64,000 bases of DNA from an uncultured Lachnospiraceae bacterium (GTDB lineage: Bacteria; Bacillota; Clostridia; Lachnospirales; Lachnospiraceae): NCBI GenBank assembly GCA_900319245.1, contig ONNQ01000002.1, positions 62,001 to 126,000 on the forward strand. The letters run 5' to 3'. The translations under genes were made by a program, and so were the position numbers. The number at the start of each line of letters is the position of its first letter. Position 1 is the stretch's first letter. Of the stretch, positions 45,110 to 62,746 are shown piece by piece. The notes below the pieces were generated by a model. It did no database searches and was not told where the DNA came from. It was given only the letters and a program-made list of their open reading frames with translations.

Positions 45110-45805
45110 GTGAAAATACTTGTCGTGGCAGATGAAGAATCCAGATCGCTATGGGATTATTTTTCTCCGGATAAACTCAAGGGGATCGATATGATCATTT
45201 CCTGTGGAGACCTGAACGCCAATTACCTGCAGTTTCTTGTCACATTCGGAAACTGCCCGCTTTTGTATGTACGCGGCAATCACGACACAAGATATGAGAT
45301 GAATCCGCCGGATGGCTGTATCTGCATCGAGGATAAGATCTTCAACTATAAGGGGATGCGCATCGCCGGGCTTGGCGGATCCATGAAGTACAAGAACAGT
45401 CCCAATATGTTCACAGAGAGGGAGATGAGAGCCAGATGGCGCCGTCTTCGCCGCAAGATCATATTCACCGGCGGGATCGATCTCTTAGTGACCCACGCGC
45501 CTGCAAAGGGATATGGCGATATGGAGGATCTCCCTCACAGAGGATTCGATTGCTTTAACGATCTTTTGATGAAATTCAAGCCGCTCTATATGCTGCACGG
45601 CCACGTACACAAAACCTATAGCGCAAGTTTTATCAGAGAAAGAAGCCACCCGTCGGGGACATTGATCGTCAACGCCTACGAGTCCTGCGTTCTTGAAATT
45701 CCGGATATTGCGTATCCCGAATATGGAAAGTCCGGTTCGTATCTCTATGATATGCTGTGTAAGCTTGCGATCAAACTAAGGATATACGACTGGAATCCAT
45801 TATAA
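45110..45805 (+). CDS. Calcineurin-like metallophosphoesterase
   Basis: This 231-residue phosphoesterase starts at GTG, one base after the preceding stop, with AAGGAG upstream in that gene's end. Motifs are GDLNANYL, RGNHDTRYE, LLVTHAPAKG and MLHGHVHKTY, all with metal ligands present. The first motif reads VVADEES, so the usual D-x-H histidine is missing. It may be active with an altered metal site. It is translationally coupled to the ParB/BMP-like protein, which suggests a shared pathway. Confidence 0.82.
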   Translation: MKILVVADEESRSLWDYFSPDKLKGIDMIISCGDLNANYLQFLVTFGNCPLLYVRGNHDTRYEMNPPDGCICIEDKIFNYKGMRIAGLGGSMKYKNSPNMFTEREMRARWRRLRRKIIFTGGIDLLVTHAPAKGYGDMEDLPHRGFDCFNDLLMKFKPLYMLHGHVHKTYSASFIRERSHPSGTLIVNAYESCVLEIPDIAYPEYGKSGSYLYDMLCKLAIKLRIYDWNPL

Positions 45806-46845: not shown

Positions 46846-46876
46846 CCTTTCACCCGGACGGTGAAAGGTTTTTTTT
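46846..46876 (+). terminator. Intrinsic terminator before the nitrogenase-like cluster
   Basis: CCTTTCACC (46846-46854) and GGTGAAAGG (46860-46868) form a perfect 9-bp stem with a 5-base loop and eight Ts. No convincing promoter lies in the 75 bases between it and the NifH-like gene. Confidence 0.9.
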
Positions 46877-46951: not shown

Positions 46952-47725
46952 ATGTTAAAAATCGCAATTTATGGCAAAGGCGGTATAGGAAAATCCACGA
47001 TGACATCCAATCTCGCCGCAGCGTTTGCCTATCTTGGCAAAAAAGTGATCCAGATCGGCTGCGATCCCAAGGCCGATTCCACGATCAACCTGCTGGGCGG
47101 GCAGCCTCTGCAGCCGGTCATGGACTATCTGCGCGAAAAGGATGAGGATCCCGAATCGATCGATGAGATTGCAAAGGAAGGCTATGGCGGCGTGCTCTGC
47201 ATTGAGACCGGCGGCCCCACGCCCGGACTTGGCTGCGCAGGACGCGGGATCATCGCAACCTTTAGCCTGTTGGAAGATCTGCAGCTGTTTGAGACCTATA
47301 AACCCGACGTTGTTCTCTATGACGTTCTGGGCGACGTGGTCTGCGGCGGCTTCGCGGCACCGATCAGAGAGGGATACGCCCGCCAGGTTCTGATCGTGAC
47401 AAGCGGCGAGAAGATGGCGCTCTACGCCGCCAACAATATCTGCACAGCGGTCCGCAACTTCGAAGACAGAAGCTATGCCAAGGTGGAAGGCATTATTTTG
47501 AACAGCCGGAATGTGGCCGGAGAGAGCCGCAAAGTCGAAGAATTTGCGGCCTCCAAGGGACTTCCTATTGTCGCGAGGATTCCCCGCAGCGACGACATCA
47601 TCCGCTTTGAGGACGAGGGCAAGACCGTGATCGAGGGCGATCCTTCCCTGCCCGTCAGTCAATGTTTCCTGGCCCTGGCAAAGAGACTTCTTGCGCAGGA
47701 CGAAAGCGAAGCGATCGGAGGATGA
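46952..47725 (+). CDS. NifH-like ATPase (nitrogenase-like iron protein)
   Basis: This 257-residue P-loop protein belongs to the NifH/BchL superfamily, whose dimers hold a [4Fe-4S] cluster and pass electrons to a NifDK-like partner using ATP. Visible are the P-loop [23 protein letters not shown], cluster ligands Cys95 in GLGCAGRG and Cys131 in [11 protein letters not shown], and the switch region YDVLGD. It is shorter than true NifH (about 290 residues) at the C-terminus. ATG of the next gene follows one base after the stop. It is the first gene of an eleven-gene unit with hyp and hyd genes. True nitrogen fixation is unlikely; the substrate is unknown. Confidence 0.92.
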
Positions 47726-47726
47726 G

Positions 47727-50279
47727 ATGAACAACGCTATCAGTTATACCGTCAAGGAGCTGTGGGAGCGGGGAAAGAACGATATCCCCAGTGAGATGAT
47801 TTCTAATACCCATCTGATCTACAGTTCCCCCGCGACTTTGTCCTTTAATTCTCCCGGCGCAGAAGGTTTTGGCGTCAAGAGAGCGGGGCTTTCCGTGCCC
47901 GGCTCCGTCATGCTGATCGTATCCCCCGGCTGCTGCGGAAGAAACACTTCCTCCATCAGCACCATGAAGGGCTATGAGAATCGCTTTTTCTATCTGACAA
48001 TGGACGAGACGGACCTGATCACAGGCCGACACTTAAAGCGTATTCCGGAGGCAGTGCGGCAGCTTGTCGGCGGCCTAACTAAAAAGCCGTCCGTGGTCAT
48101 GATCTGCATCACCTGCGTCGACGCGCTCCTTGGCACCGATATGGAAAGGGTGTGCCGCAAGGCGGAGGCGCTCATCGATACAGAACACACCGGGATCCGA
48201 GTTCGTCCCTGCTATATGTACGCGCTCACCAGAGAGGGCCGTAAGCCGCCCATGGTCCATGTGCGCCAGTCCATCTACAGTCTTCTTGCTCCCATGAAAA
48301 AGAAGCCTTCCAGCGTCAATCTCATGGGCTATTTTGCACCGGTCAGTGAAGACAGCGAACTGCGCGGGCTCCTGCGGCAGATTGGTGTGAAGACCATCCG
48401 CGAAGTATCTGCCTGCCAGGATTATGACGATTTTCAATCCATGGCGGAGGCCAATTTTAACCTGGTCCTGAACCCGGAAGCGAGGCCTGCTGCCCAGGAT
48501 CTCGAAGAGAGGCTTGGCATCGCATCGATCGAGCTGACAAGGCTCTATCAGGTGGACCGAATCGCAGCCCAGTATGACGCGCTCGGCGCAGCGCTGGGTG
48601 TCACCTTTGACTATGAAGCTGATCGCGAGAAGGCAAAAAGCAGCATGAAGCGATTTCGGACAGCCTTTCCCGGCGCCGTATTCAGCGTCGGCGAAGCCAT
48701 CAACGCAGATCCCTTCGAGCTGTCCCTGGCGCTGGTGCGCTATGGCTTTGCGGTCAAGGAGATCTTCGGAACCCTCTCGACGGATTCCTACCGCTATCTC
48801 CGTCATCTCGCTGTCCTGAGCCCCGAGACGCGCGTCTATTCAAACCTTCATCCCTCCATGCTTCTCTATGGGGATTCGGACGTGCAGGGTCAAAACACCG
48901 AACAGGCGAAAGGGCCGCACATCGCGCTTGGAAGAGACGCCGGCTGGTATCATCCGGATCTTCCGTGCCTTCCGTGGGGGCAGGACATACAGCCCTTCGG
49001 ATTTGCCGCCGTGCGCAGCTTCTTCGATGCTTTATATGAAACAGCCATGCACGGCGCGCGAGGCCTGTACGGATCGACTGTACAGCTCGGCGAACACACG
49101 GATGCTGTGCGGCAGGTCCTTGTAATGACGAAAGAGGCAGCGCAAACAGACAGGCAGGGCATAGAAGCAGAACATGATCTGACTGTAAAGCCGCCCAAGG
49201 GCTATCGCAGCGTCTTGACGCCCTTTGCACCGGACCAGTCCGGCGCTGTGTCGGTTCTCTACGAGCTCGGCGGGATCACCGTTATCTGTGACGCCGGTGG
49301 CTGTACCGGCAATATCTGCGGTTTTGATGAACCCAGATGGTTTCAAACGTCCGGTGCCGTCTTCAGCGCAGGTCTTCGCGATATGGACGCGATCCTGGGG
49401 CGGGATGACCGTCTGATCCAGAAGCTCGCGGATACCGCGTCCTTCCTTCGCGAGAAAGAAGGCACAAAGGCGCCTTCCTTCGCAGCCATTATCGGAACGC
49501 CGGTTCCGGCCGTTATCGGGACGGACTTTAAGGCACTTCAACGGATGGCCGTCAAGAAAACAGGGCTCCCCGCGATCGGGGTTGCCTGCGACGGTATGGA
49601 CTATTACGACAAAGGGGCTGAGAAGACCTATCTGTCTCTTCTAAAGACCTTTGTGGCCGGCAGCGCAGAGGAGCAGCCTGCCTGGCGCGAGGACTGCATC
49701 GGCGTTCTAGGCGCGCAGTACATGGACCTTCACGGAATTGCTGCGCCCGATACACTCAGAACTCTGATTGAAGAGGAGACCAGGCATCACGCTGTTCTCT
49801 ATGGGAGCCGGGAAGATGGCATCGACGCTTTTAGAGGGGCCGGCTCTGTACGCCGCAATCTCGTTGTCACTGTGGCAGGCTATGAAGCCGCCAAATGGCT
49901 TGCGAATAAATTCGGCACGCCGTTTACATGTCAAAATCCTGCTGTTGCAAGCCAGATCCGCGACCTGAGCGGCCGAATGGACCTCCATGGCCGCAAGGTC
50001 CTGGTCCTTCACGAACAGATCACGGCCAATTCCTGCCGGGAAGAACTGCTGCGGCTTGGCGCTGACCGCGTCGACGTCGCCTCCTGGTTTATGATGAAGG
50101 AGGCGCTGATGCAGGACGGCGATTTCCGCCTGCATGAAGAGCAGGATCTTGTAAAGGCGGTGGAAAAGGGCCGGTACGACTGTATTTTGACAGATGCGGC
50201 TGTGCGCCCGCTCATAGAGTGGCATTTTGCAGGCGTATTCGCGGAGCTTCCCCACTTTGCAGTATCAGGTAGATTATGA
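47727..50279 (+). CDS. Fused NifD-like/NifK-like nitrogenase component 1
   Basis: This 850-residue protein contains two consecutive nitrogenase component-1 folds. The N-terminal half (about 1-485, D-like) has Cys69-Cys70 in SPGCCGRNTS and Cys127/Cys130 in MICITCVDALLGTDM, placed like P-cluster cysteines. The C-terminal half (about 490-850, K-like) starts at RSVLTPFAPDQSGAVSVLYE and has Cys521, Cys526 and Cys531 near GGCTGNICGFDEPRW; its second motif reads GTPVPAVIGTD without the usual Cys. D and K are normally separate chains, so a heterodimer in one polypeptide is unusual. The start is the ATG one base after the NifH-like stop, with GGAGG upstream. Ligands for a FeMo-type cofactor could not be identified. 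Confidence 0.85.
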   Translation: MNNAISYTVKELWERGKNDIPSEMISNTHLIYSSPATLSFNSPGAEGFGVKRAGLSVPGSVMLIVSPGCCGRNTSSISTMKGYENRFFYLTMDETDLITGRHLKRIPEAVRQLVGGLTKKPSVVMICITCVDALLGTDMERVCRKAEALIDTEHTGIRVRPCYMYALTREGRKPPMVHVRQSIYSLLAPMKKKPSSVNLMGYFAPVSEDSELRGLLRQIGVKTIREVSACQDYDDFQSMAEANFNLVLNPEARPAAQDLEERLGIASIELTRLYQVDRIAAQYDALGAALGVTFDYEADREKAKSSMKRFRTAFPGAVFSVGEAINADPFELSLALVRYGFAVKEIFGTLSTDSYRYLRHLAVLSPETRVYSNLHPSMLLYGDSDVQGQNTEQAKGPHIALGRDAGWYHPDLPCLPWGQDIQPFGFAAVRSFFDALYETAMHGARGLYGSTVQLGEHTDAVRQVLVMTKEAAQTDRQGIEAEHDLTVKPPKGYRSVLTPFAPDQSGAVSVLYELGGITVICDAGGCTGNICGFDEPRWFQTSGAVFSAGLRDMDAILGRDDRLIQKLADTASFLREKEGTKAPSFAAIIGTPVPAVIGTDFKALQRMAVKKTGLPAIGVACDGMDYYDKGAEKTYLSLLKTFVAGSAEEQPAWREDCIGVLGAQYMDLHGIAAPDTLRTLIEEETRHHAVLYGSREDGIDAFRGAGSVRRNLVVTVAGYEAAKWLANKFGTPFTCQNPAVASQIRDLSGRMDLHGRKVLVLHEQITANSCREELLRLGADRVDVASWFMMKEALMQDGDFRLHEEQDLVKAVEKGRYDCILTDAAVRPLIEWHFAGVFAELPHFAVSGRL

Positions 50280-52687
50280 GCAGATTACAAACTTTACGAA
50301 TCAAGGTATACGGAATCGTGCAGGGCGTCGGCTTTCGGCCGACGGTCGCGCGCCATGCCGCGAAGGCAGGGATTTGCGGTTCCGTCTGCAATAAAGGCCC
50401 GTACGTGGAGATCTACGCACAGGGTAGCAGGGAAGAAAACGAACAGTTTCTGCGCCTTCTTAGCCAAAATCCTCCCAAACGGGCGGCTATCCTGAAGATC
50501 GACGTCAAGGATGTGAGCGAGCGCGGCCTTTCATTTGTCGACTTTCAGATCATCGTGAGCGAAAAGACCAGGGGCGAAATCTTTATCTCCCCCGACATTG
50601 CCATCTGCGAGGACTGTAAGAAGGAGCTTATGGACCCTTCCGACCGCAGATACCTGCATCCCTTTATCAACTGCACGTGCTGCGGCCCCAGGCTGACCAT
50701 TCTCGACGGCCTTCCCTATGACAGGGAGCGGACCAGTATGAAGATGTTCCCCATGTGTCCGCAGTGCGCAAAGGAATATCATTGGCCCGGCAGCAGACGC
50801 TACGACGCGCAGCCTGTGTGCTGCAACGAATGCGGGCCGGAAGTTTACCTGGCCGGTGATCCATCCGTGCGCGGAAGCGAGGCGATTCGTCGAACCCGGC
50901 GCGTGATCGCCGAGGGCGGCATCGCAGCCATCAAGGGAATCGGCGGTTTTCACCTCTGCTGCGACGCGACAAACCAAGAGGCGGTCTTAAAGCTCCGGGC
51001 CAGAAAGACGCGCCCGGTCAAGCCCTTCGCTGTTATGATGCGGGACGAAGAGACCGTCGAGCGGGAGTGCCGGATCAGCGAGTCGCAGCGGGACATTCTG
51101 ACCGGCCACCAGAAACCGATCCTGTTACTTACGCGCAAAGAGGGCGGCAGGCTCTGTCCGGAGATTGCCCCGGGCAATCCCACGGTAGGCGTCATGCTTC
51201 CGTATGCGCCGGTGCAGATTCTTCTCTTTGACTATATAGACGACGTCGTGATGCCCGATTGTCTTGTGATGACAAGCGGCAATGTGTCGGGCGCCCCGAT
51301 CTGCCGGGATGATGAAGAGGCGCTTAGGGAGCTAGGTCATCTTTGCGACATCTTTTTGTCCCATAACAGAAAGATCCGGATCCGGGCGGACGACTCCGTC
51401 ATGGATTTCTACCGCGGAGAGCCCTACATGATCCGCCGGTCCAGAGGCTATGCGCCGCTCCCCTATATGCTCTCTGCATGGGAAAACGCACCGGCCCCCG
51501 CAGGCGGCACCGGGATCCTCGCGATCGGAGGCGAGCTCAAGAACACCTTCTGTATTGGGACCGGAGGCCTTTTCTATCCCTCCTCCTATATCGGCGATCT
51601 GGCCGATCTACGAAGCGTCAAGGCACTGGAGGAGACAGCCGGGCGGTATAGTTCACTCCTGGAGGTGACGCCGGACGTCATCGCCTGCGACCTACATCCC
51701 AAGTACAATTCCGTTCTGGCCGCTGAGAAAATGGCGGAAGAGATCGGTAAGGAGAGAGGCACGGGGCCTCTTCCCATCCTGCGCGTGCAGCATCATTACG
51801 CCCATATTCTGAGCTGCATGGCGGAAAACGACTATAGCGCCCCTGTGATCGGCGTCTCCATGGACGGCACCGGATACGGAACCGACGGCACGATCTGGGG
51901 CGGCGAGATTCTCACCGCGGACTACCGCGGATTTACGAGAGCGGCGTGCATTCGTCCTTTCCTGCAGGTGGGCGGAGACCTCTCCGCAAGAGAGGGCTGG
52001 CGCATTGCGGCGTCCATGCTGCACAGCATCTGTGATGGCGAATCCGCGGGATCTCTGCTTCCTGACATGCAGGATGTCGCTGCCAAAATATCGCTTTGCA
52101 GCGAGCAGGAAGCGCGCATCGTCGCCAAAATGGCGGACCAAGGGCTCAATGCCGTCGTGTCCACGAGCGCAGGCAGACTCTTCGACGCGGCGAGCGCGAT
52201 CTGCGGCATCTGCCGAAAGTCCACCTTTGAAGGGGAGGCCTCCATGGCGCTGGAGTTTGCGGCTGAGCGTTTTGACCAAACCGAAGAAGCACGTGAATGG
52301 AGCGAGATGGAAGACGATCGTCCCGAGCGCGGTGAGACGCGCTGGATCCTTCCCACAGAGAAGATCATTCGGGCGATCACGTATAAGCGCCTTGCGGGAG
52401 AAGACGCCGATCATCTGGCCTGGCTCTTCCACAGAAGGCTGGCGGACCAGATCATCCAAGCGGTCCTTGCCATCCGGTCGGAAAACGGGATCGAAACGGC
52501 GGCGCTGAGCGGCGGCTGTTTCCAGAACCGCCTTCTTCTGTCCTTTGTGGAGAAGGGGCTTACCGATGCCGGGATGACCGTGCTCATCCATCATCTGGTC
52601 CCGCCCAATGACGGCGGGATCGCACTCGGGCAGGCTGTATACGCCAGGCAGGCTCTGCAGGACGGACTGCCTTTTCGCGCCAAATAA
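50276..52687 (+). CDS. hypF: Carbamoyltransferase HypF
   Basis: HypF turns carbamoyl phosphate and ATP into a carbamoyl-adenylate and passes the carbamoyl group to HypE, the source of hydrogenase cyanide ligands. The 803-residue chain has an N-terminal acylphosphatase domain (KVYGIVQGVGFRPTVARHAA), two zinc fingers (CEDCKKEL...CTCCGPRL and CPQCAKEY...CCNECGP), a YrdC-like domain (about 200-390) and a Kae1-like domain (VQHHYAHILSCMAE, GVSMDGTGYGTDG). All catalytic regions look intact. It overlaps the fused DK gene by ATGA. hypA and hypB are not in the cluster. Confidence 0.96.
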   Translation: MSRLQTLRIKVYGIVQGVGFRPTVARHAAKAGICGSVCNKGPYVEIYAQGSREENEQFLRLLSQNPPKRAAILKIDVKDVSERGLSFVDFQIIVSEKTRGEIFISPDIAICEDCKKELMDPSDRRYLHPFINCTCCGPRLTILDGLPYDRERTSMKMFPMCPQCAKEYHWPGSRRYDAQPVCCNECGPEVYLAGDPSVRGSEAIRRTRRVIAEGGIAAIKGIGGFHLCCDATNQEAVLKLRARKTRPVKPFAVMMRDEETVERECRISESQRDILTGHQKPILLLTRKEGGRLCPEIAPGNPTVGVMLPYAPVQILLFDYIDDVVMPDCLVMTSGNVSGAPICRDDEEALRELGHLCDIFLSHNRKIRIRADDSVMDFYRGEPYMIRRSRGYAPLPYMLSAWENAPAPAGGTGILAIGGELKNTFCIGTGGLFYPSSYIGDLADLRSVKALEETAGRYSSLLEVTPDVIACDLHPKYNSVLAAEKMAEEIGKERGTGPLPILRVQHHYAHILSCMAENDYSAPVIGVSMDGTGYGTDGTIWGGEILTADYRGFTRAACIRPFLQVGGDLSAREGWRIAASMLHSICDGESAGSLLPDMQDVAAKISLCSEQEARIVAKMADQGLNAVVSTSAGRLFDAASAICGICRKSTFEGEASMALEFAAERFDQTEEAREWSEMEDDRPERGETRWILPTEKIIRAITYKRLAGEDADHLAWLFHRRLADQIIQAVLAIRSENGIETAALSGGCFQNRLLLSFVEKGLTDAGMTVLIHHLVPPNDGGIALGQAVYARQALQDGLPFRAK

Positions 52688-52694
52688 CCTGCTG

Positions 52695-52766
52695 TATCAC
52701 AGTCAGTCTACATATCAGTCTTACTGTCAATCGTAACGTCCGTCACAACGACGGACCAATGTGATA
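52695..52766 (+). other. Intercistronic nested hairpins between hypF and hypC
   Basis: TATCACA (52695-52701) can pair with TGTGATA (52760-52766), enclosing a perfect hairpin GTCCGTC (52738-52744) / GACGGAC (52750-52756). No U-tract follows. It could be an mRNA processing or stability element. Confidence 0.5.
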
Positions 52767-52788
52767 GAAAAAACGGAGGAATAAACGT

Positions 52789-53001
52789 ATGTGTGTCGGT
52801 CTTTCAGCGAGAGTAGTAAAGATCAATGAAAATGGAACAGCCCTTGTGGACGCCAGCGGCGCCAGAAGACAGGTCTCCGCGCAGCTTCTCGAGGAGCTCG
52901 AGCCCGGTGACTTCGTCATGGTCCACGCAGGCGCGGCCATCGCAAAGATCACAAATGATGATCTGTCCGAGACGGAAGATCTTCTGAAGGAGTATGTATG
53001 A
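52789..53001 (+). CDS. hypC: Hydrogenase maturation chaperone HypC
   Basis: HypC carries the Fe(CN)2CO unit with HypD and delivers it to the hydrogenase precursor. This 70-residue protein keeps the essential Cys2 (MCVGLSARVV), although most members read MCLGIP or MCLAIP here. The OB-like core follows (VSAQLLEELEPGDFVMVHAGAA). Its stop overlaps the hypD start by ATGA. The changed N-terminal tip may reflect a different client protein. Confidence 0.93.
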   Translation: MCVGLSARVVKINENGTALVDASGARRQVSAQLLEELEPGDFVMVHAGAAIAKITNDDLSETEDLLKEYV

Positions 53002-54071
53002 GCAGCCAGAACGCGGATATCAATAAACGCAGTGCGACCCAATCCGCACTGGAAATCCTCAAGAATTACAAGGGCCCCTCGGTGCGGATCATGGAAGTGT
53101 GCGGCACCCATACCCACGAAATCTTCCGGCTGGGAATCCGCAAGGTTCTTCCCCCTTCGATCCGCCTGATCTCGGGCCCCGGATGTCCCGTCTGCGTGAC
53201 GCCGGTCAGTTTCATCGACGAAGCCCTGCTCCTTGCCCTGGAACACGGCTGCACGATCTGCACCTTCGGCGATCTCGTGCGCGTGCCGGGTACAACCTCA
53301 AGCCTGCAGAAAGCACGCGGCGCCGGTGCCAAAGTGCAGGTCGTCTATTCGCCCCAGGACGCCGCCGAGTATGCCAAGGCGCATCCGGAGGAGCAGGTGG
53401 TCTTTTTGTCCGTCGGATTTGAAACGACGACGCCCTCTGTCTGCATCGCCGTAAAGACAGCGGCGGAGGAAAAGCTCCCCAACTTCTCTGTTTTGACAGC
53501 GAATAAGACCATGCCGGGCGCCTATGAGGCCATGAAGGACAGCACCGATCTGTTTCTGTATCCGGGTCACGTACATGCGATCATCGGGACCTCCATCTGC
53601 GAGGAACTGGCCGTGCGCGGCGTGAGCGGCATCTGTGCAGGCTTTACCGCGTCAGAGCTTGTGACCGCACTGGCCGTCGGCGTGACCAAATTCGAGCGGG
53701 GCGAATCCTTCTTCGTCAACTGCTATCCCAGAGTCGTGAGGCCGGAGGGACAGCCCGCCGCTGTGCGGCTGGTCGATTCCATGATGGAACCCTGTGACAG
53801 TGAGTGGCGCGGCATCGGTGAAATCCCGAAATCCGGCATGAAGCTGCGGGATGCATATGCGGCATATGACGCCAGAATCAAGTTCCGTATTCCCAAGGTC
53901 GAGGGGCGAAGCAATCCGGCCTGCCGCTGCGGAGACGTTCTGCAGGGCAAGTGCCTGCCTTCCGACTGCAAAGTGTTTGGCAAAGTGTGTACGCCGGAGC
54001 ATCCCGTCGGCGCCTGCATGGTATCCGGTGAAGGCGCATGTTCGGCATTTTATCTGTATGGAGGAAAATAA
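52998..54071 (+). CDS. hypD: Hydrogenase maturation protein HypD
   Basis: HypD is the [4Fe-4S] scaffold on which HypE-bound thiocyanate is reduced to cyanide on iron. The 357-residue chain has EVCGTHTHEIFRLGIRK with the key Cys, SGPGCPVCVTP, FLSVGFETTTP and the C-terminal cluster region NPACRCGDVLQGKCLP, then CKVFGKVCTPEHPVGACMVS. All family cysteines appear present. It overlaps hypC and is five bases from hypE. Without adjacent hypA/hypB the product may go to something other than a nickel enzyme. Confidence 0.96.
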   Translation: MSSQNADINKRSATQSALEILKNYKGPSVRIMEVCGTHTHEIFRLGIRKVLPPSIRLISGPGCPVCVTPVSFIDEALLLALEHGCTICTFGDLVRVPGTTSSLQKARGAGAKVQVVYSPQDAAEYAKAHPEEQVVFLSVGFETTTPSVCIAVKTAAEEKLPNFSVLTANKTMPGAYEAMKDSTDLFLYPGHVHAIIGTSICEELAVRGVSGICAGFTASELVTALAVGVTKFERGESFFVNCYPRVVRPEGQPAAVRLVDSMMEPCDSEWRGIGEIPKSGMKLRDAYAAYDARIKFRIPKVEGRSNPACRCGDVLQGKCLPSDCKVFGKVCTPEHPVGACMVSGEGACSAFYLYGGK

Positions 54072-54076
54072 CGACA

Positions 54077-55096
54077 ATGGACATATATACAAACAACGAT
54101 ACAGTCACACTGGCACATGGCGCGGGCGGCAAACAGACGTCGGAGCTGATCGACCGGGTCTTCAAAAAGCACTTCCAGAACCCGCTCTTTACAGCGGATG
54201 ACGCGGCTGTCATCGACGTGGAGAAAGGGCGGATCGCCATGTCCACCGATGGATTTATTGTCTCTCCGGCCTTCTTTGCGGGCGGCAATATCGGAAAGCT
54301 CTCCATCTGCGGCACCGTCAACGATCTGGCCTGCATGGGCGCTGTGCCCCGCTATCTGACCTGCGGATTTGTCATCGAGGAGGGATTCCCTTTACAGACC
54401 CTCGAAGAGATCGCAGACGCCATGGAGAAGACAGCGGCGGAAGTCGGCGTGCGGATCGTCGCGGGAGATACTAAAGTGGCCGGAAAGGGACAGGTGGACG
54501 GCGTATTCATCAACACCACCGGCGTCGGGATCATTCCGGAGGGAATCCGGACGTCCGGCGCGCTGGCCAAACCCGGCGACGCGGTCATCGTGACCGGCGA
54601 TATCGGACGACACGGCTGCACGATCCTTCTGGAAAGAGAAGACTACGGTATCGAGGCGGAAGTGACAAGTGACTGCGCACCTTTAAGCGGCGCTGTGCAG
54701 GCGGCGCTGAAGGCAGTTCCGGATATACACGTGATCCGTGACGCGACCCGCGGCGGCGTAGGCACCGTGCTCTATGAGATCGCGGGACAGAGTCATGTCG
54801 GCGTCAACCTGGATGCCGCTTCCATTCCAGTCGATCCCGCCGTGCGCGGCGTATGCGGCCTCCTTGGCCTCGAGCCCCTTTACCTTGCCTGCGAGGGCCG
54901 GCTTGTCATGGTATGTCCGGCGGAGCAGGCAGATCTCCTCGTCGAGACTTTGCGCGGCTGCAAATATACGGAAGGTGCGGCTGTGATCGGCCGGATTACA
55001 GACGACATGCCCGGCCGCGTGACAATGACGACCGAAATCGGCGCGCAGACATTGCTCGCACAGCCCGGAAACGAGCTGCTGCCCAGGATCTGCTAA
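54077..55096 (+). CDS. hypE: Carbamoyl dehydratase HypE
   Basis: HypE takes the carbamoyl group on its C-terminal Cys and dehydrates it with ATP to a thiocyanate. The 339-residue protein shows the N-terminal LAHGAGGKQTSELIDRVF, the PurM-like ATP region DDAAVIDVEKGRIAMSTDGF, GTVNDLACMGA, VAGDTKV, RDATRGGVGTVLYE, and it ends exactly in the functional PRIC with the reactive Cys last. The start at 54077 has GGAGG about 12 bases upstream; an upstream Met inside hypD has no family-like sequence. The reactive Cys implies the cyanide-ligand pathway works. Confidence 0.95.
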   Translation: MDIYTNNDTVTLAHGAGGKQTSELIDRVFKKHFQNPLFTADDAAVIDVEKGRIAMSTDGFIVSPAFFAGGNIGKLSICGTVNDLACMGAVPRYLTCGFVIEEGFPLQTLEEIADAMEKTAAEVGVRIVAGDTKVAGKGQVDGVFINTTGVGIIPEGIRTSGALAKPGDAVIVTGDIGRHGCTILLEREDYGIEAEVTSDCAPLSGAVQAALKAVPDIHVIRDATRGGVGTVLYEIAGQSHVGVNLDAASIPVDPAVRGVCGLLGLEPLYLACEGRLVMVCPAEQADLLVETLRGCKYTEGAAVIGRITDDMPGRVTMTTEIGAQTLLAQPGNELLPRIC

Positions 55097-55108
55097 GAGG
55101 CTTGCGCC

Positions 55109-55125
55109 GCGCGTACTTGACGCGC
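55109..55125 (+). other. Intercistronic hairpin after hypE
   Basis: GCGCGT (55109-55114) pairs with ACGCGC (55120-55125) around a 5-base loop with no U-tract. The 112-base gap to the next gene holds no other feature I can see. Confidence 0.35.
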
Positions 55126-55208
55126 CAGATAAGACAATATCCAAGCCAAAAACCAGATTTCGATCATCGTAAGACCGATCAACCAACAGGTCATGGAGGA
55201 AGCAGGGG

Positions 55209-55478
55209 ATGACAGAGACAAGAGTCGCAGTGATCTCAATCATTGTAGAAAACGAAGACGCCGTGCAGAAAGTCAATGAGATCCTGCACGATTACCGCAC
55301 TTTCATCATCGGAAGAATGGGCATTCCCTACCGTGTGAAAGGAATCAGCATCATCAGCGTCGCGATCGACGCGCCCCAGGACAAGATCAGCGCGCTCTCT
55401 GGCAAGATCGGGAAGCTCCCCGGCATCTCCGCCAAGACGGCCTATTCCAATGTGATTACAGGAGCGAAGAAAGCATGA
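55209..55478 (+). CDS. TM1266-type iron-only hydrogenase system regulator
   Basis: This 89-residue protein matches the small ACT-like family annotated as iron-only hydrogenase system putative regulator (TM1266 type). It reads RVAVISIIVENEDAVQKVNE, then HDYRTFIIGRMGIPYR, GISIISVAIDAP and LPGISAKTAYSNVI. Such genes usually sit with hydE, hydF or hydG. Whether it binds metal, nucleotide or protein is unknown. GGAGG lies upstream of the ATG. It overlaps the next gene by ATGA, tying the NifH-D fusion to hydrogenase maturation. Confidence 0.9.
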   Translation: MTETRVAVISIIVENEDAVQKVNEILHDYRTFIIGRMGIPYRVKGISIISVAIDAPQDKISALSGKIGKLPGISAKTAYSNVITGAKKA

Positions 55479-57658
55479 TCAGAATTGCATTTTACGGAAA
55501 AGGCGGCATCGGCAAATCCACGACCGTCTCCAATCTGTCCCAGTACTGGGCGGGCAAAGGACTGACTGTTCTGCAGATCGGCTGCGATCCCAAAGCGGAT
55601 TCCACAATTGCGCTGCGGGAAGGCCATGCGCTTCCGTCCGTCATGGATAAGGTGCGGAGCAGGGAGCCCTTTACCCTGGACGACGTCCTATATGTGCAAA
55701 AAACAGAAAACGGCGGCCAAATCCTCTGCGCCGAGGCAGGCGGACCGCTCCCCGGACGGGGATGCGCTGGAAGAGGCATCATCACGGCGCTGGAAACCCT
55801 GCGCAGTAAGGGCGTTTTGGAAACCTACAAGCCCGACGTGATCCTTTACGACGTCCTTGGCGACGTGGTCTGCGGCGGATTTGCCATGCCCATGCGGGAC
55901 GGATTCGCAAGCCGGGTCTATGTGCTTACATCCGGCGAAAACATGTCGATTTACGCAGCCGCCAACATTGGTATGGCCGTATCCGGCTTTCGTGAAAGAG
56001 GATACGCGCAGCTCGGCGGTATTATCTTGAACCGGCGGGGCGTAAAGCGCGAAGAGGAAAAGGTGACGGAACTGGCGGCGGATCTTCAGACACAGATCAT
56101 CGGCGCGCTGGACCGCTCGGATACCGTGCAGGAAGCGGAAGAGCTGGGGACTACGGTTGTCCGCGCCTTTCCTGCTTCCCCCATAGCTGCGCAGTTCAGA
56201 GCGCTGGCGGACAAGATCGCGGAGGAGTGCAGCCTTTCCTATCCTGTTAAGGCGCCTTTCCATGTGACGACCGAAAACGGCACGCATTCCGATGCAGCCG
56301 GTCCAAGCCGCATTGCCGTCAGAGACGCCTCCTTCCCGAGCCCATTTACGGCAGGCCTGGAATTCAATCCGCCGGTCCATGAGACCTGGAACATCGTGCA
56401 TATCGGCATGCTTTTGCCTCAGTCCCATCAGATCTACATTTGTTCCGACAACTGTATGCGGGGCGTGGTCATGACCGCGGCCGAAATGAATGCGATCGAC
56501 CGCTTCTCCTGTGTTGTGCTCGAGGAAAAGGATATTTTGGCAGGCGGGCTCGAGGAGATCACCCTGGAAGGCGTGACGGACGTCCTCTGTAAGCTGCGCG
56601 CCAAGAGGGGTGAGGAGGGCCTTCCCAAGGCCGTCATTGTCTTCCCGGTGTGCCTGCATCACTATACGGGATGCGATATGGGTTACGTCTACCGGGAACT
56701 GGAAAAGCGCTTCCCCGGTATCACATTTGTCCGCGGCTGGATGGATCCGATCATGCAAAAGACGGGCCCCACGCCGGATATGAAGCTCATGAAAGCCATG
56801 ATGGACGTCCTTGCGCCGGTCCCATCCGCCACCGGAAAAGCGGCGCTTCTCGGCGACATCTATGCGCTGGATGCTGACAGCGAGCTCATGAAGCTGCTCA
56901 CATGTGCCAACGCACTGACAGGTGCGGATGGGCAGCCCCTCCAGATCCAGGACTGCGAAGACCTCGATTCCTATAGAACGCTCGCCGGCTATGATGTTCT
57001 GATCACGCGAAGCCCGGTTGCGGCGGCAGCAGTCCGACAGACGGCCAGACGGCTCCACAAAGAGGCGCTCTATATGCCTGCCGCGGCAGGGTATGCAGAG
57101 ATTCGCACATTGCTCGAAGCGGCCGCTGAAGCGATGGGCCTTACCCTGGACCAGGCCGGGATCGATCCGGACAAGGAAGAGCGGGCCTGCGAGGAAGCAG
57201 CGAAGCATCTGTATGCAGTCATCAGAGATACGCCGATCGCGGTCGATGCGGTCGCGCTGCAGAGGCCTCTTGGATTTGCCAGATTCCTTCTGGAACGAGG
57301 ATTCCAGGTCAAAGAAATCTATCTGGACGCCGTGAGCGCCGAGGAAGCGGACGATTTTACCTGGCTTTCCCAAAACCATGGCGACGTGCTCCTCTGCAGT
57401 ACCATTCACATACAAGGTCGGGTCCTGCACGCCCAGGGCATCGATGGGGCCCACAGCGGCTACCTGGCGGTCGGCCCCAAGGCGGCCTGGTTCTGCGGCA
57501 GCAGTCATTTCGTCAATCTGGTGGACTGCGGCGGCCTGTGGGGTTACAGCGGACTGCGGCGCGTTCTGGCGCTGATGGAGGACGCCTTCCTCCATGAAAA
57601 GGACACAGAAGACATCGTGCCCCGCAAGGGCCTGGGATGCGAAAGCATTGTAATGTAG
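55475..57658 (+). CDS. NifH-NifD fusion protein (nitrogenase-like)
   Basis: This 727-residue protein joins a full NifH-like ATPase (about 1-265) to a NifD-like component-1 domain (about 300-727). The NifH part keeps P-loop [23 protein letters not shown] and the cluster ligands Cys97 (GRGCAGRG) and Cys133 (GDVVCGGF). The D-like part has Cys323 and Cys327 in ICSDNCMRG and Cys393/Cys400 in VFPVCLHHYTGCDMG, in the same order as in the fused D-K protein upstream. In nitrogenases these are separate proteins that dock and release on ATP hydrolysis, so a covalent link is remarkable. The K-like partner follows after 12 bases. A frameshift artefact is unlikely, as the linker reads through in one frame. 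Confidence 0.88.
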   Translation: MIRIAFYGKGGIGKSTTVSNLSQYWAGKGLTVLQIGCDPKADSTIALREGHALPSVMDKVRSREPFTLDDVLYVQKTENGGQILCAEAGGPLPGRGCAGRGIITALETLRSKGVLETYKPDVILYDVLGDVVCGGFAMPMRDGFASRVYVLTSGENMSIYAAANIGMAVSGFRERGYAQLGGIILNRRGVKREEEKVTELAADLQTQIIGALDRSDTVQEAEELGTTVVRAFPASPIAAQFRALADKIAEECSLSYPVKAPFHVTTENGTHSDAAGPSRIAVRDASFPSPFTAGLEFNPPVHETWNIVHIGMLLPQSHQIYICSDNCMRGVVMTAAEMNAIDRFSCVVLEEKDILAGGLEEITLEGVTDVLCKLRAKRGEEGLPKAVIVFPVCLHHYTGCDMGYVYRELEKRFPGITFVRGWMDPIMQKTGPTPDMKLMKAMMDVLAPVPSATGKAALLGDIYALDADSELMKLLTCANALTGADGQPLQIQDCEDLDSYRTLAGYDVLITRSPVAAAAVRQTARRLHKEALYMPAAAGYAEIRTLLEAAAEAMGLTLDQAGIDPDKEERACEEAAKHLYAVIRDTPIAVDAVALQRPLGFARFLLERGFQVKEIYLDAVSAEEADDFTWLSQNHGDVLLCSTIHIQGRVLHAQGIDGAHSGYLAVGPKAAWFCGSSHFVNLVDCGGLWGYSGLRRVLALMEDAFLHEKDTEDIVPRKGLGCESIVM

Positions 57659-57670
57659 CAGGAGGAGAGA

Positions 57671-58843
57671 ATGCGACAAGCCTACCGAATACTGCCGGTC
57701 TATACAGGAGACGTCTCGGGCGTCTGCTCAGCGCTTTATGAACTGGGCGGCATGGTCGTCATGCATGATCCCTCCGGCTGTAATTCCACCTACAATACCC
57801 ACGATGAAATCCGCTGGTACAGGCAGGACAGTCTGATCTTTCTGTCCGGTCTGTGCGAGCCGGACGCTGTCATGGGCAACGACGACAAGTTTATACAGGA
57901 CGTTGTCCGGGCTGCGAACACCTATCATCCGCGCTTCATCGCGCTTTGCAATTCCCCGATTCCCTATTTGACAGGGACTGATTTTGCAGGTATATGCGCC
58001 GTCCTTGAAAACAAGACGGGCATCCCCACCTTCTATATCCCGACAAACGGCATGCACGACTATGTGGTGGGTGCCGGACTTGCCTGGGAAAAGCTGGCGG
58101 AGAATCTGTTTGAAAAGAGCGGCCGGGATGCGCTTGCATCCCCCGTACGTAAAGGAGCGGGCCAAAAGCCCCGGGTCAATGTCCTTGGCATGACGCCCCT
58201 TGACTTCGCCGCCAAGGGAAGCTGCGCCTCCCTCAAAGCGCTTCTTACCGAGGAAGGATTTGTCGTGCAGTCCGTCTGGGCCATGGAGGATACGCTGGAC
58301 ACCTTGCGCAAAGCGCCGTCCGCAGACGTCAATCTTGTCATTTCCGCCACCGGGCTAAGAGCCGCCAAGTATATGCAAACGCGGTTTTCGATCCCCTGGG
58401 TCGCCGGCCTTCCGATTGGAAGTCTGAAAAATAAAGTCGTAGAGGCGCTCAGACGCAGCATTGTGACCGGCCAAAGCGGTACCGCGTATTCCCAAACTGC
58501 GCATGGATCGGACTTTCCTTCCGTCGTCGTAATCGGTGAGCCGGTCGCGGCCTGCAGTCTGGCGGCGGTCTGCGAAGGGGAGGGCGAGACAACCTGCGTG
58601 CTTGCCGCTACAGAGGAGAGTGAGGCACTGATCCGGGAAGGCGACAGGGTCTGCCGTGGCGAAGAGGAAGTCGAAAACGCACTGGCGGCACTTGCCCCGC
58701 ACTGCCGGAGGATCATTGCGGACCCCATGTACCAGTATGTGTGTCCGGATGGGCCGTCCTTTACGGCCGTGCCGCATCTGGCCTTTTCGGGGCGAATCTA
58801 CCGCAGGGACTTTCGGGATTTCTTTCGTAAATCCGTTTTGTGA
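57671..58843 (+). CDS. Stand-alone NifK-like nitrogenase component 1 subunit
   Basis: This 390-residue component-1 protein resembles the C-terminal half of the fused D-K protein: YRILPVYTGDVSGVCSALYE and LGGMVVMHDPSGCNSTYNTH align with its PFAPDQSGAVSVLYE region. Candidate cluster ligands are Cys37 (DPSGCNST) and Cys93 (IALCNSPIPYLTGTD). The expected partner is the D-like half of the NifH-D fusion immediately upstream. The C-terminus reads VPHLAFSGRIYRRDFRDFF. AGGAGGAG precedes the ATG. It is 33 bases from hydF. Confidence 0.87.
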   Translation: MRQAYRILPVYTGDVSGVCSALYELGGMVVMHDPSGCNSTYNTHDEIRWYRQDSLIFLSGLCEPDAVMGNDDKFIQDVVRAANTYHPRFIALCNSPIPYLTGTDFAGICAVLENKTGIPTFYIPTNGMHDYVVGAGLAWEKLAENLFEKSGRDALASPVRKGAGQKPRVNVLGMTPLDFAAKGSCASLKALLTEEGFVVQSVWAMEDTLDTLRKAPSADVNLVISATGLRAAKYMQTRFSIPWVAGLPIGSLKNKVVEALRRSIVTGQSGTAYSQTAHGSDFPSVVVIGEPVAACSLAAVCEGEGETTCVLAATEESEALIREGDRVCRGEEEVENALAALAPHCRRIIADPMYQYVCPDGPSFTAVPHLAFSGRIYRRDFRDFFRKSVL

Positions 58844-58876
58844 ATTTGTTTTGTAAATGTGAGGAGATGATTAAGT

Positions 58877-60121
58877 ATGGGACTGAACGCGACACCGTCG
58901 AGTGAGAGAGTACATATCGGATTCTTTGGTCGCAGAAATGCGGGCAAATCGAGTCTTGTCAACGCCGTCACAAGCCAGGAGATCTCCGTGGTCTCCGATG
59001 TAAAGGGCACCACGACCGATCCTGTGACCAAATCCATGGAGCTGCTGCCCCTGGGGCCCGTCGTGATCATCGATACGCCCGGATTTGACGACGAGGGAAC
59101 GCTGGGCCAAAAGCGCGTGCAGAGGGCGAAGAGAGTTCTCAACCGCACTGACCTTGCCGTTCTGGTGATCGACGCGATAAGCGGCGCCGCAGAAGCCGAC
59201 CGGGAGCTGGTGCAGCTCTTTACAGAGAAAGAGATTCCGTACCTGATCGTCTGCAATAAGGCCGACCTGATTGCGGATCAGGACGCTTTTGCCGCGAATC
59301 TTTCCGGCGATGGCTTTCATGACGTCCTGTTCGTCAGCGCGTTGACAGGGCAGGGGATCTTCGCACTCAAGGAGGAGATTGCCAGACGCGGCCGCGCAGA
59401 CAACGGCCATACGCCGCTCATCGAGGATCTGGTGCACCCCTCTGAAATCGTGCTCCTCGTGATCCCGATCGACAAGGCGGCGCCCAAGGGACGGCTCATT
59501 CTGCCCCAGCAGATGATGATCCGCGGGCTCCTGGACGCGGACGCGATTCCGATCTGTGTCAAGCAGGACAGACTGCAGGAGACACTGGACAGACTGGCCG
59601 GGCCTGACGGCGACAGAGACACCAAACCGGGCCTCGTCATTACCGACAGTCAGGTTTTTGGCGAAGTGGCCAAGATTGTGCCGGACGAGATTCCCATGAC
59701 CTCCTTCTCCATTCTGATGGCCCGCTACAAAGGCTTTCTGGACGAGGCTGTGAAGGGCGCCCGCATGATCGATTCTTTAAAGGACGGCGATCTCATCCTG
59801 ATCTCCGAGGGGTGTACGCATCACAGGCAGTGCGGCGATATCGGCACGGTCAAGCTCCCCGCCTGGATCCGTCAAAAGACCGGCGCGCAGATCCGCTTCG
59901 AGACCTCCTCGGGCACCGGCTTTCCGGAGGATCTTGGCCGCTACGCCATGATCATTCACTGCGGCGGATGTATGCTGAACGACAGAGAGATGCGCTACCG
60001 CATGAAATGCGCGGCGGACCAGGGCGTTCCGATCACCAACTACGGCACAGCGATCGCCCACATGAAGGGAATTCTTGGAAGGAGTACGCAGATCGTACTG
60101 AAGGACGATGCATGCGAATGA
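58877..60121 (+). CDS. hydF: [FeFe] hydrogenase H-cluster maturation GTPase HydF
   Basis: HydF is the scaffold that assembles the H-cluster 2Fe subsite and transfers it to HydA. The 414-residue protein has GTPase motifs GRRNAGKSSL, the TTTDP switch, DTPGFDDEG and NKADL. The C-terminal [4Fe-4S] site keeps the family pattern C-x-H ... H-C-x2-C (Cys313, His315, His361, Cys362, Cys365). GAGGAG precedes the ATG. Its end overlaps the hydE start. The presence of intact HydF is the best evidence that the cluster serves an H-cluster-like product. Confidence 0.96.
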   Translation: MGLNATPSSERVHIGFFGRRNAGKSSLVNAVTSQEISVVSDVKGTTTDPVTKSMELLPLGPVVIIDTPGFDDEGTLGQKRVQRAKRVLNRTDLAVLVIDAISGAAEADRELVQLFTEKEIPYLIVCNKADLIADQDAFAANLSGDGFHDVLFVSALTGQGIFALKEEIARRGRADNGHTPLIEDLVHPSEIVLLVIPIDKAAPKGRLILPQQMMIRGLLDADAIPICVKQDRLQETLDRLAGPDGDRDTKPGLVITDSQVFGEVAKIVPDEIPMTSFSILMARYKGFLDEAVKGARMIDSLKDGDLILISEGCTHHRQCGDIGTVKLPAWIRQKTGAQIRFETSSGTGFPEDLGRYAMIIHCGGCMLNDREMRYRMKCAADQGVPITNYGTAIAHMKGILGRSTQIVLKDDACE

Positions 60122-61257
60122 GTGCGAATGCGATGAAAATACAAACACTGATCGATCGACTGGAGAGGGAGAGAACTCTCTCTGATGCGGAATTGGAAGA
60201 ACTCTTTGCAATCCTTGCGCAGGCACATAAGGGTCCGGGCGCCGGTAAGGTGCAGATCTGTGCGGACATCCCGCAGGCCGTGTGTTCCGAGGAGGAGGCC
60301 ATCCTCTATGCGGCGGCCCGCCGGGTCCGCGAGCAGTATTACGGCAAAGACGTGTATTTGCGCGGCCTCATTGAGTTCACCAACTACTGCCGCAACGACT
60401 GCCGCTACTGCGGCATCCGTAGAAGCAACAAAAAGGCGGAGCGCTACAGGCTGACCAAAGACCAGATTCTGGACTGCTGCCGGCAGGGATATAACCTGGG
60501 CTTTCGGACCTTCGTCCTGCAGGGCGGAGAAGATCTCTCCTACACAGACGCCGCCATCTGCGACATCGTCTCCTCAATCCGCGCCCTCTATCCGGACTGC
60601 GCGATCACGCTTTCCATCGGAGAGAAGAGCAGAGAATCGTATAAAGCCTACAAAGACGCCGGTGCGGACCGCTACCTTCTGCGACAGGAGACTTCCTCCC
60701 CGGCCCATTACCGTTACCTGCACCCCGAAGAGCTCACGATCGAGAACCGCAAGCGCTGCCTGTCCGATCTCAAGGAACTGGGTTATCAAGTGGGTTGCGG
60801 GATCATGGTCGGATCGCCCGGCCAGACGCTCGCCAACGTGATCGAGGATCTGCGCTACATGCAGGATTTTGGCCCCCATATGATCGGCGTAGGCCCCTTC
60901 ATTCCCCACAAGGACACGCCCTTTAAGGACGAGGCGCCTGGAACGCTCACGGACACGCTCCATCTGCTCGCTGTGATCCGGCTCATGATCCCCGGCGTCC
61001 TTCTGCCCGCCACGACCGCGCTCGGAACCATCCACCCGGTCGGGCGAGAGCTGGGTCTTTTGGCAGGCGCGAATGTCATTATGCCCAACCTTTCGCCCGT
61101 CAATGTCCGCGGCAAATATCTGCTCTATGACGGCAAAATATGCACGGGCGACGAAGCGGCCTCCTGCCGGCACTGCATGGACCTTCGCATTGCGCGGGCC
61201 GGCTACAAAACGGCGATGGTCCGGGGCGACTGCGCAGGCTTTGCAGTGAATGACTAA
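60112..61257 (+). CDS. hydE: [FeFe] hydrogenase H-cluster radical SAM maturase HydE
   Basis: HydE is a radical SAM enzyme that processes the HydG-derived Fe(CO)2(CN)-cysteine synthon toward the 2Fe subsite. The SAM cluster motif is CRNDCRYC (Cys93, Cys97, Cys100) after FTNY, with LQGGEDLSYTD and YLLRQETSSPAHYRYLHP downstream. A second C-terminal site C-x7-C-x2-C (Cys344, Cys352, Cys355), as in some HydE proteins, is present. Three in-frame ATGs compete: 60112 (AAGGA six bases upstream, chosen), 60118 (ATGA overlap with hydF) and 60133. The length is 375-381 residues. hydG is not beside it or elsewhere in the window. Confidence 0.93.
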   Translation: MRMSANAMKIQTLIDRLERERTLSDAELEELFAILAQAHKGPGAGKVQICADIPQAVCSEEEAILYAAARRVREQYYGKDVYLRGLIEFTNYCRNDCRYCGIRRSNKKAERYRLTKDQILDCCRQGYNLGFRTFVLQGGEDLSYTDAAICDIVSSIRALYPDCAITLSIGEKSRESYKAYKDAGADRYLLRQETSSPAHYRYLHPEELTIENRKRCLSDLKELGYQVGCGIMVGSPGQTLANVIEDLRYMQDFGPHMIGVGPFIPHKDTPFKDEAPGTLTDTLHLLAVIRLMIPGVLLPATTALGTIHPVGRELGLLAGANVIMPNLSPVNVRGKYLLYDGKICTGDEAASCRHCMDLRIARAGYKTAMVRGDCAGFAVND

Positions 61258-61381: not shown

Positions 61382-62746
61382 ATGGAATATAGAATTGAAC
61401 ATGACTCCATGGGAGAGATGAAGGTTCCCGCCGACAGCTATTGGGGCGCGCAGACGCAGAGAAGCTACCAGAACTTCCAGATTGGCACGGAGAAGATGCC
61501 TGCGGAGATCATCCGCGCGTTCGCGATCTTGAAGAAGGCGGCAGCCATCGCCAACTTTCGATTGGGAAAGCTGGACCAACAGCGATGCGACCTGATCGCC
61601 AAGGTCTGTGACGAGATTCTGGAGGGGAAGCTGGCAGGCAATTTCCCGCTCGCCGTCTGGCAGACCGGAAGCGGCACCCAGTCCAATATGAATGTCAACG
61701 AGGTCATTGCGAACCGCGGCAACGAGATCACAGGGGAGAAGCTCCTTCACCCCAACGACACCGTCAACATGTCCCAGAGTTCCAACGACACGTTTCCGAC
61801 CGCTATGCACATCGCGGCGATTATGACGTTAGAGAACAATCTGCTCCCCGCCGTCCACGCGATGATCGCAGAGTTGAAGCGTTTGGAAGTCGAGAACGAG
61901 GGAATCGTAAAGAGCGGCAGAACCCACTTGCAGGACGCTGTGCCGATCGCCTTTTCGCAGGAGATCAGCGGCTGGCGCTCCATGCTGGAAAACTGCGCCG
62001 ACATGATCTGCGACTCCGAGAAGGGACTGCGTAAGCTGGCACTTGGCGGAACGGCTGTGGGAACCGGCCTCAATGCCCCCAAGGGCTTTGCGGAAGAAGC
62101 GGCCAGAGCCGTCAGCGAGCTGACCCTGGACGAATTTGTGACAGATGACAACAAGTTCCACGCGCTTTCTGCCAAGGACGCAATTGTTTATTCCCACGGC
62201 GCCCTCAAGGCACTCGCCGCCGATCTGCTCAAAATTGCCAATGACGTTCGCTGGCTGGCCAGCGGGCCGCGCTGCGGACTGGGAGAGATCTACATTCCGG
62301 AAAACGAGCCCGGAAGTTCGATCATGCCCGGCAAAGTCAATCCGACCCAGTGCGAAGCTGTGACCATGGTAGCCGTGCAGGTCATGGGCAATGACGCAGC
62401 CATCGGAATTGCCGCTTCACAGGGAAATTTCCAGCTCAACGTCTTTATGCCGGTGATCATTTACAACTATCTGCAGTCGGTGCGCCTTCTCACCGATGCG
62501 CTTGAATCCTTCCGCAAGAACTGCGTGAGCGGGATCAAAGCCAATAAGGAGAAGATGTCCGCGAACCTGCACAATTCTCTGATGCTGGTCACGGCGCTCA
62601 ATCCCTATATCGGGTATGAGAACGCCGCGAAGACCGCGAAGCTTGCCCACAAGGAAAATATTTCTCTGAAAGAAGCTTGTGTCCGTCTCGGATTTCTGAC
62701 TTCTGAAAAGTTTGACGAGGTATTTCACCCCGAAACCATGATCTAA
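61382..62746 (+). CDS. fumC: Class II fumarate hydratase
   Basis: This cytoplasmic, oxygen-stable enzyme interconverts fumarate and malate. The 454-residue chain has [20 protein letters not shown], the substrate loop [38 protein letters not shown] and the signature [16 protein letters not shown]. The TQCEA ending and overall sequence favour fumarase over aspartate ammonia-lyase. GAGGTG precedes the ATG. There is no clear functional link to the hydrogenase-type cluster. Confidence 0.95.

Follow-up and report, generated by a model that had tools for sequence, protein, structure and literature searches.

The window analysed here, a 64,000-nucleotide stretch of DNA from an uncultured Lachnospiraceae bacterium (contig ONNQ01000002.1), contains a cluster of eleven consecutive plus-strand open reading frames (ORFs) at 46952–61257 that encodes two nitrogenase-like modules, four Hyp proteins, a TM1266-type protein, HydF and HydE. 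Module A is composed of a NifH-like protein (NflH1) and a fused D-K protein (NflDK), and module B is composed of a fused NifH-D protein (NflHD) and a K subunit (NflK). Judged from gene content, HydE, HydF, TM1266 and HypCDEF, all intact, probably act together with the two nitrogenase-like modules in a HydG-independent assembly of the [2Fe] subsite of [FeFe]-hydrogenase. HydG is regarded as the enzyme that supplies this hydrogenase with its CO and CN ligands, and the known route is described as one in which HydG cleaves tyrosine and yields Fe(II)(Cys)(CN)(CO)2, two of these HydG-made units are reduced and joined by HydE, and the bridge is added at HydF, from which the product is delivered to HydA (PMC12752695). 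If the prediction is correct, a HydG-independent route exists in rumen-derived Lachnospiraceae and in acetogens such as Clostridium ljungdahlii, which can be modified.

The cluster is conserved among relatives. A scan with one genome per species identified 440 D-K-related loci, and the best 80 of these 440 were analysed. These 80 span Lachnospiraceae, Olsenella and other Coriobacteriia, Acetitomaculum, Schwartzia, one Lentisphaeria and others, with C. ljungdahlii, C. carboxidivorans, C. drakei, C. luticellarii and C. muellerianum representing Clostridium. Fifty-nine of the 80 loci were usable, with D-K flanked by 0.9 kb or more on its upstream side and 5.2 kb or more downstream, and all 59 encode NflH1 directly before D-K together with HypF, C, D and E on one strand. 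This shared core gene set argues that the cluster is not due to chance. D-K fusions lying away from hyp/hyd genes, which the initial annotation had named as counter-evidence to look for, were sought, and HypF, C, D and E were in the same locus in every usable case. The order NflH1-DK-HypFCDE is kept in 57 of the 59 loci; in the other two (L070 and L080) HypF is found after HydE and not before HypC. Within the 51 loci that extend over about 10 kb, NflHD was identified in 47, NflK in 44, TM1266 in 31, HydF in 24 and HydE in 19, with one or more of TM1266, HydF and HydE in 38, and FecB was found near D-K in none. In five loci (L114, L115, L116, L117 and L160) tblastn gave two adjoining segments for the D and K of module A, which are probably separate genes there and not a fusion.

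The genomes that encode D-K have HydA and nearly always lack HydG. Fifty of the 80 D-K loci were picked by hand, with named isolates and long contigs preferred, and their genomes were searched. HydA is over the cut-off in all 51 D-K genomes once the genome of the window itself is included (PF02906, E 4.5e-93 in the latter). Of 30 fetched HydA loci, 26 contain all three H-cluster loop motifs, that of the own genome (L108) among them, and the four misses are without the second motif only. HydG is over its cut-off in a single genome of the 50, that of C. drakei. Nothing scored above 90 bits against the HydG model in 35 of the 50, and C. ljungdahlii (L042, G006), a close relative of C. autoethanogenum, has no HydG-model match above 68 bits. 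The initial annotation had set the cluster against the background of HydE, HydF and HydG; the first two are present, but HydG is encoded neither in the operon nor, at the cut-off, elsewhere in the own genome (87% complete), where the sole match to the HydG model is HydE itself (74 bits). The presence of HydA together with the near-constant absence of HydG makes a second, HydG-free route likely.

Fifteen of the 50 genomes, C. drakei included, contain a sub-cut-off match to the HydG model of 171–228 bits, and these proteins are read as putative ThiH. Such matches would suit an explanation in which CO and CN come from another radical SAM enzyme (a diverged HydG or one resembling ThiH) and the cluster only assists, for example by supplying reductant; atypical HydG candidates with altered cysteine spacing have also been proposed (PMC9431212). 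We regard this explanation as quite improbable given the 35 genomes, including that of C. ljungdahlii, in which no match exceeds 90 bits, and an own genome whose only HydG-model match is HydE. As a substitute for HydG, a ThiH-like protein was rejected for those 35 genomes.

The Hyp proteins of D-K genomes usually have no visible [NiFe] client. At an E-value of 0.001 the [NiFe] large subunit was matched in 12 of the 51 genomes, but seven of these matches cover only the first ~70 positions, which leaves five genomes (four Clostridium and Schwartzia) with a match beyond that region; no match was found in the own genome. Service of Hyp to [NiFe] enzymes was thus rejected for most genomes, as the large-subunit match is short or lacking in 46 of 51. 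The same counts bear on the explanation that the cluster is two independent neighbours, with Hyp and the nitrogenase-like set serving [NiFe] or another use beside a separate Hyd set. The five genomes with the longer match agree with this explanation, as do 13 of the 51 loci in which HydE, HydF and TM1266 are not found within about 10 kb. It is very improbable in view of the other 46 genomes, the overlap of genes within the cluster, and the occurrence of module B with HydE, HydF or TM1266 but without D-K in the six HydG-less genomes described below.

As the 50 genomes were hand-picked, two automatically drawn samples were also used, which share one genome (G000) and may overlap with the hand-picked set. 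In the class sample of 291 genomes, D-K (E<1e-190) was identified in 7, HydG in 183, HydA in 270 and HydF in 195. None of the seven D-K genomes has HydG, and all seven have HydA and one HydF each. When only HydF-positive class genomes are considered, HydG is present in 0 of 7 with D-K versus 177 of 188 without it (Fisher 1.7e-8, relatedness ignored). The family sample, composed of 200 genomes of 200 genera, contains HydG in 100 and a strong D-K match in 12, with no overlap (Fisher 3.4e-4, relatedness ignored). Full D-K was found in only two of 149 Coriobacteriia genomes (both within the 50), with three weaker matches, and for this reason the Coriobacteriia were not used as an independent replicate and no contingency test was performed. 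The exchange can also be followed inside one genus (g63), where four genomes (G108, G185, G208 and G250) encode D-K without HydG, two (G135 and G291) encode HydG without D-K, and one (G310) is without D-K, HydG and HydF.

These data bear on the nature of the product. The initial annotation had described the operon as one for an undescribed iron-CO/CN cofactor; a conserved unit that appears suited to handling an iron-CO/CN cofactor, with nitrogenase-like modules beside it, is indeed found, but the evidence favours the known [2Fe] subsite over an undescribed cofactor. A different, novel iron-CO/CN cofactor for another enzyme, with HydE and HydF acting on a new substrate and the loss of HydG as a side effect, would agree with the lack of a HydA gene in the window, with nitrogenase-like proteins that fall under all NCBIfam cut-offs, and with the three HypD-less genomes discussed below. 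It appears unlikely, since HydA, present in 51 of 51 D-K genomes, would be left without known maturation in genomes that lack HydG and have one HydF each (the seven class genomes), and since the exchange of HydG and D-K within genus g63 is hard to read as a side effect.

HydG loss and the D-K system do not coincide in every genome. Eighteen class genomes have HydF without HydG: seven encode D-K with Hyp, three encode module B without D-K, and eight have no match to the D-K profile at 1e-30, a threshold at which the profile also detects module B. The proposal that HydG loss is always accompanied by the D-K system was therefore rejected. Of the eight, five are at most 86% complete and three at least 98%. 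HypD is over its cut-off in all seven D-K genomes, in none of the three with module B alone and in two of the other eight; it is also over the cut-off in 17 of 42 HydG-positive genomes hand-picked as controls.

The two nitrogenase-like modules, which the initial annotation had placed in one system, are both present but separable. Module A tracks HypFCDE, module B tracks HydE, HydF, TM1266 and the absence of HydG, and an importer appears where D-K is missing. Module B was detected through the D-K profile and in the fetched stretches. The three class genomes with module B but no D-K (G119, G192 and G278; stretches L119, L120 and L121) encode it as NifH, D and K, and next to it lie genes for a FecB-type binding protein, a FecCD permease and an ATPase (Pfam names for L119). 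The family sample contributed three more importer-type modules (G603, G620 and G661; L150, L151 and L154). Among these six stretches, HydE is found in L119, L120 and L150 and HydF in L119, L150 and L151, while TM1266 is found in all except L120, which reaches a contig end; L121 and L154 have TM1266 alone. In G192 and G119, HydF is located on another contig. HydG was found in none of the six importer-type genomes, and HydA is present in all three that were checked (G119, G192 and G278). The same three genomes are without HypD, which indicates that Hyp is not always needed. In L121 (12266–13321) the ABC ATPase carries a TM1266 domain as a C-terminal fusion, which ties the putative regulator to the importer.

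A K-type sequence tree, built with a quick method from 78 rows of selected loci and with 29 of 75 forks open, groups all D-K C-terminal halves into one clade (29 rows, support 99). The module B K subunits, both Hyp-linked and importer-linked, form another clade (36 of 78 rows, Shimodaira-Hasegawa-like approximate likelihood ratio test (SH-aLRT) support of 100) that is separate from related NifH-D-K-FecBCD clusters without nearby hyd genes. Two loci labelled generic, L155 and L156, belong to D-K genomes (G557 and G577) as second nitrogenase-like sets, and the tree places both within the module B clade. Eleven further stretches (L118, L122–L125, L146–L149, L152 and L153) encode NifH-D-K with a FecBCD-type importer and no hyd genes detected nearby, although only the binding protein of the importer was seen in L125. 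Six of the 11 genomes that carry these generic importer clusters have HydG.

A HydG-free route built from these parts could proceed in four steps. By family assignment, HypF and HypE would make cyanide from carbamoyl phosphate, and HypCD would load this cyanide onto iron. Module A may then supply or exchange a carbonyl through ATP-driven, low-potential electrons. The resulting unit, with one CN and two CO, would suit HydE, the substrate of which is given as iron with one cyanide, two carbonyls and a cysteine (PMC12752695), rather than [NiFe] enzymes, for which the HypCDEF product is described as iron with two cyanides and one carbonyl (PMC12134894). The latter article names the origin of the carbonyl in the [NiFe] maturation of anaerobes as the most pressing open question. 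NifH proteins alone are reported to reduce CO2 to CO, which provides a precedent for the carbonyl step of module A, and NifH together with NifEN is described as an ATP-driven cofactor maturase (PMC9571451). Module B would reduce the unit or pass it to HydE, and HydE and HydF, again by family, would finish the subsite and deliver it to HydA. In the importer-type genomes the first half of this pathway is absent, and the unit or a precursor may be imported. A fuller version of the proposal remains tentative and is possible rather than probable: a second H-cluster biosynthesis in which, in place of the tyrosine-based reaction of HydG, carbamoyl phosphate and CO2 are turned into Fe(CN)(CO)2 by HypCDEF and a NifH/NifEN-like machine, HydE and HydF are fed by another nitrogenase-like machine, and users of the FecBCD-type importer salvage the iron-carbonyl/cyanide unit from neighbours. 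The suggested salvage is likened to cobalamin salvage by others.

Several observations weigh against the HydG-free route. The own genome is only 87% complete, C. drakei (L044, G008) carries D-K and HydG together, and 13 of the 51 D-K loci are without HydE, HydF and TM1266 within about 10 kb. The Fisher values take no account of relatedness. HypD is found in none of the three importer-type genomes searched, which are left without any known CO or CN source. The three genomes that are at least 98% complete (G210, G330 and G333) encode HydF and HydA, are without HydG, gave no D-K-profile match at 1e-30, and possibly represent a third solution to H-cluster assembly; HydE and TM1266 are also encoded in the corresponding stretches of G210 (L136) and G333 (L138), the stretch of G330 being L137. 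At least 75 of the 270 HydA-positive class genomes are without HydF at E 1e-60, so a HydA profile match alone is no proof of an H-cluster; either the profile finds proteins that do not need one or the HydF-less genomes are incomplete. In the account of PMC12134894, labelling in Ralstonia eutropha excluded added CO2 as the direct source of the [NiFe] carbonyl, and PMC9431212 lists an atypical HydG candidate for each acetogen except C. autoethanogenum.

The authors of the acetogen study offer an alternative in which free CO and cyanide are used with HydE and HydF (PMC9431212). Extended to the present cluster, this would mean that no HydG substitute is needed, that HydE and HydF take up free metabolic CO and cyanide, and that the cluster serves another purpose. 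Their in vitro experiments with HydE and HydF in the absence of HydG gave about 1% activation, which was higher with added CO or CN (PMC9431212). An activation of about 1% is low, and the regular lack of HydG in D-K genomes that keep Hyp, HydF and HydA would stay unexplained, making this explanation very unlikely.

Parts of this gene set have been described before. According to Dos Santos et al. (2012), Coprococcus catus and Dorea longicatena each have two NifHEN-like copies that are linked, and fused NifH-NifE proteins occur in some Firmicutes as well as others. In Firmicutes that include C. catus, the same study found NifHEN-like proteins associated with proteins of hydrogenase maturation and suggested a possible role in active-site or metallocluster assembly (PMC3464626). 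The C. catus-type set is probably the same as the cluster described here. The passages of that article on these proteins mention neither the absence of HydG nor a split into Hyp and Hyd modules, and importers are named there only beside other NifEN-like groups. The description of the system as undescribed in the initial annotation thus holds for the function and the link to HydG, but not for the co-location, which has been in print since 2012. In a 2022 study of acetogens, five of eight Clostridium species, including C. ljungdahlii, yielded no HydG by motif, for which the authors had no straightforward explanation; a HydG candidate by motif is listed for C. autoethanogenum, HypC–F for all eight species and HypA/HypB for three (PMC9431212). 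Among openly licensed PMC papers (CC0, CC BY or CC BY-SA), none was found that ties the association of NifHEN-like and maturation proteins to the absence of HydG. The main text of a C. autoethanogenum transposon sequencing (Tn-seq) paper contains no mention of nitrogenase, nif or maturation, and its hydrogenase passages omit the genes of the cluster (PMC9004356).

All ORFs and family scores agree with the eleven overlapping or closely spaced genes and the identities given in the initial annotation, and an ORF check returned the same coordinates. The gene order is NifH-like, fused D-K, HypF, HypC, HypD, HypE, TM1266, fused NifH-D, K, HydF and HydE. Four junctions (DK/HypF, HypC/HypD, TM1266/HD and HydF/HydE) overlap by four bases, and the remaining six intergenic gaps are 1 to 112 bases. 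HypC–F, TM1266, HydF and HydE pass their NCBIfam cut-offs, and the nitrogenase-like proteins of the cluster are over none. The first gene encodes NflH1 (46952–47725), a NifH-like ATPase/reductase (PF00142, 295 bits) that is below the NifH equivalog cut-off (308 versus 394) and contains the P-loop GKGGIGKS and both cluster Cys contexts; the P-loop and the [4Fe-4S] cysteines are kept in both NifH-like domains of the cluster. The next gene encodes NflDK (47727–50279), which matches PF00148 in two stretches (139 bits). Foldseek analysis of the NflDK model gave the fused NifEN 9i0g as the top match (E 5e-28; TM-score 0.34 and root-mean-square deviation 25.5 over the whole model), and by this structure comparison the model has an EN-type fold.

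HypF (50276–52687) is a carbamoyltransferase (TIGR00143, 738 bits, cut-off 466) with two zinc-finger-like Cys patterns. It is followed by the chaperone HypC (52789–53001; TIGR00074, 61 bits, cut-off 48), in which Cys2 is present, and the scaffold HypD (52998–54071; TIGR00075, 357 bits, cut-off 193) with a GPGCPVC motif. HypE (54077–55096; TIGR02124, 406 bits, cut-off 252) contains the C-terminal PRIC; it was scored from 54074, which is no start codon, and most likely starts at 54077. The TM1266-type small protein (55209–55478; TIGR03959, 118 bits, cut-off 61) precedes NflHD (55475–57658; PF00142, 257 bits), the D part of which is under the PF00148 cut-off (20.2 versus 28.6 bits). Its Cys residues 327 and 393 are conserved in 94 of 94 D-type sequences (one best match per locus, some from D-K). 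NflK (57671–58843; PF00148, 102 bits) has Cys19 and Cys37, which are invariant in 16 of 16 aligned sequences. The final two genes encode the GTPase/scaffold HydF (58877–60121; TIGR03918, 543 bits, cut-off 326) with a C-x-H...H-C-x-x-C motif, and the radical SAM maturase HydE (60118–61257; TIGR03956, 538 bits, cut-off 254.6) with CX3CX2C at residues 91–98.

The cluster resembles the HydE-HydF-HydG maturation system in its HydE, HydF and TM1266 and in the HydA of its genome, but differs in having HypCDEF and two nitrogenase-like modules instead of HydG. It shares HypC, D, E and F with their key cysteines with HypABCDEF maturation of [NiFe] enzymes, but lies beside HydE/HydF, mostly in genomes without a [NiFe] large-subunit match beyond the first ~70 positions. 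With the NifH-NifEN maturase of FeMo-cofactor it has in common a NifH-like protein and an EN-like fused scaffold, whereas its proteins are under the NifH and NifE equivalog cut-offs (NifE 87 versus 505) and are linked to hydrogenase. Against nitrogenase (NifHDK), the NifD score was 27 versus a cut-off of 654, and the NifH score given above is also below its cut-off. Against the F430 cyclase CfbCD, scores were 302 versus 402 for CfbC and 27 versus 268 for the catalytic subunit, and the cluster proteins are also under the DPOR equivalog cut-offs. CfbCD, DPOR and methylthio-alkane reductase have NifH-like and D/K-type folds as well, and chains of both DPOR and methylthio-alkane reductase could be aligned to the NflDK model, but the operon partners of all three differ from those of the cluster.

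No Rfam match above the gathering score was found across the window, and both HydA genes of the own genome lie outside it. Upstream of the cluster, the genes at 39685–45805 include those for a sugar transferase and an rfbC-like epimerase (both from the ORF reading), for a phosphoesterase and for a binding protein of the BMP family, none of them visibly linked to the cluster. A terminator-like hairpin with a T-run is located 5' of the operon on the plus strand (46846–46868) and is possibly the end of the preceding unit; the pattern scan found 14 such sites versus 13.7 in shuffles, which makes this hairpin weak by itself. At 124 bases 3' of the cluster, a plus-strand gene encodes a class II fumarase (61382–62746; TIGR00979, 735 bits, cut-off 665). 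The ammonia-lyase AspA has been considered for the bridge of the H-cluster (PMC11736057). AspA was rejected as the identity of the downstream lyase, which scored 460 against the AspA model where 681 is needed and is a fumarase by model. A fumarase gene also follows HydE in L019 (21638–22360), and the fumarase gene in the window is a candidate member of the operon.

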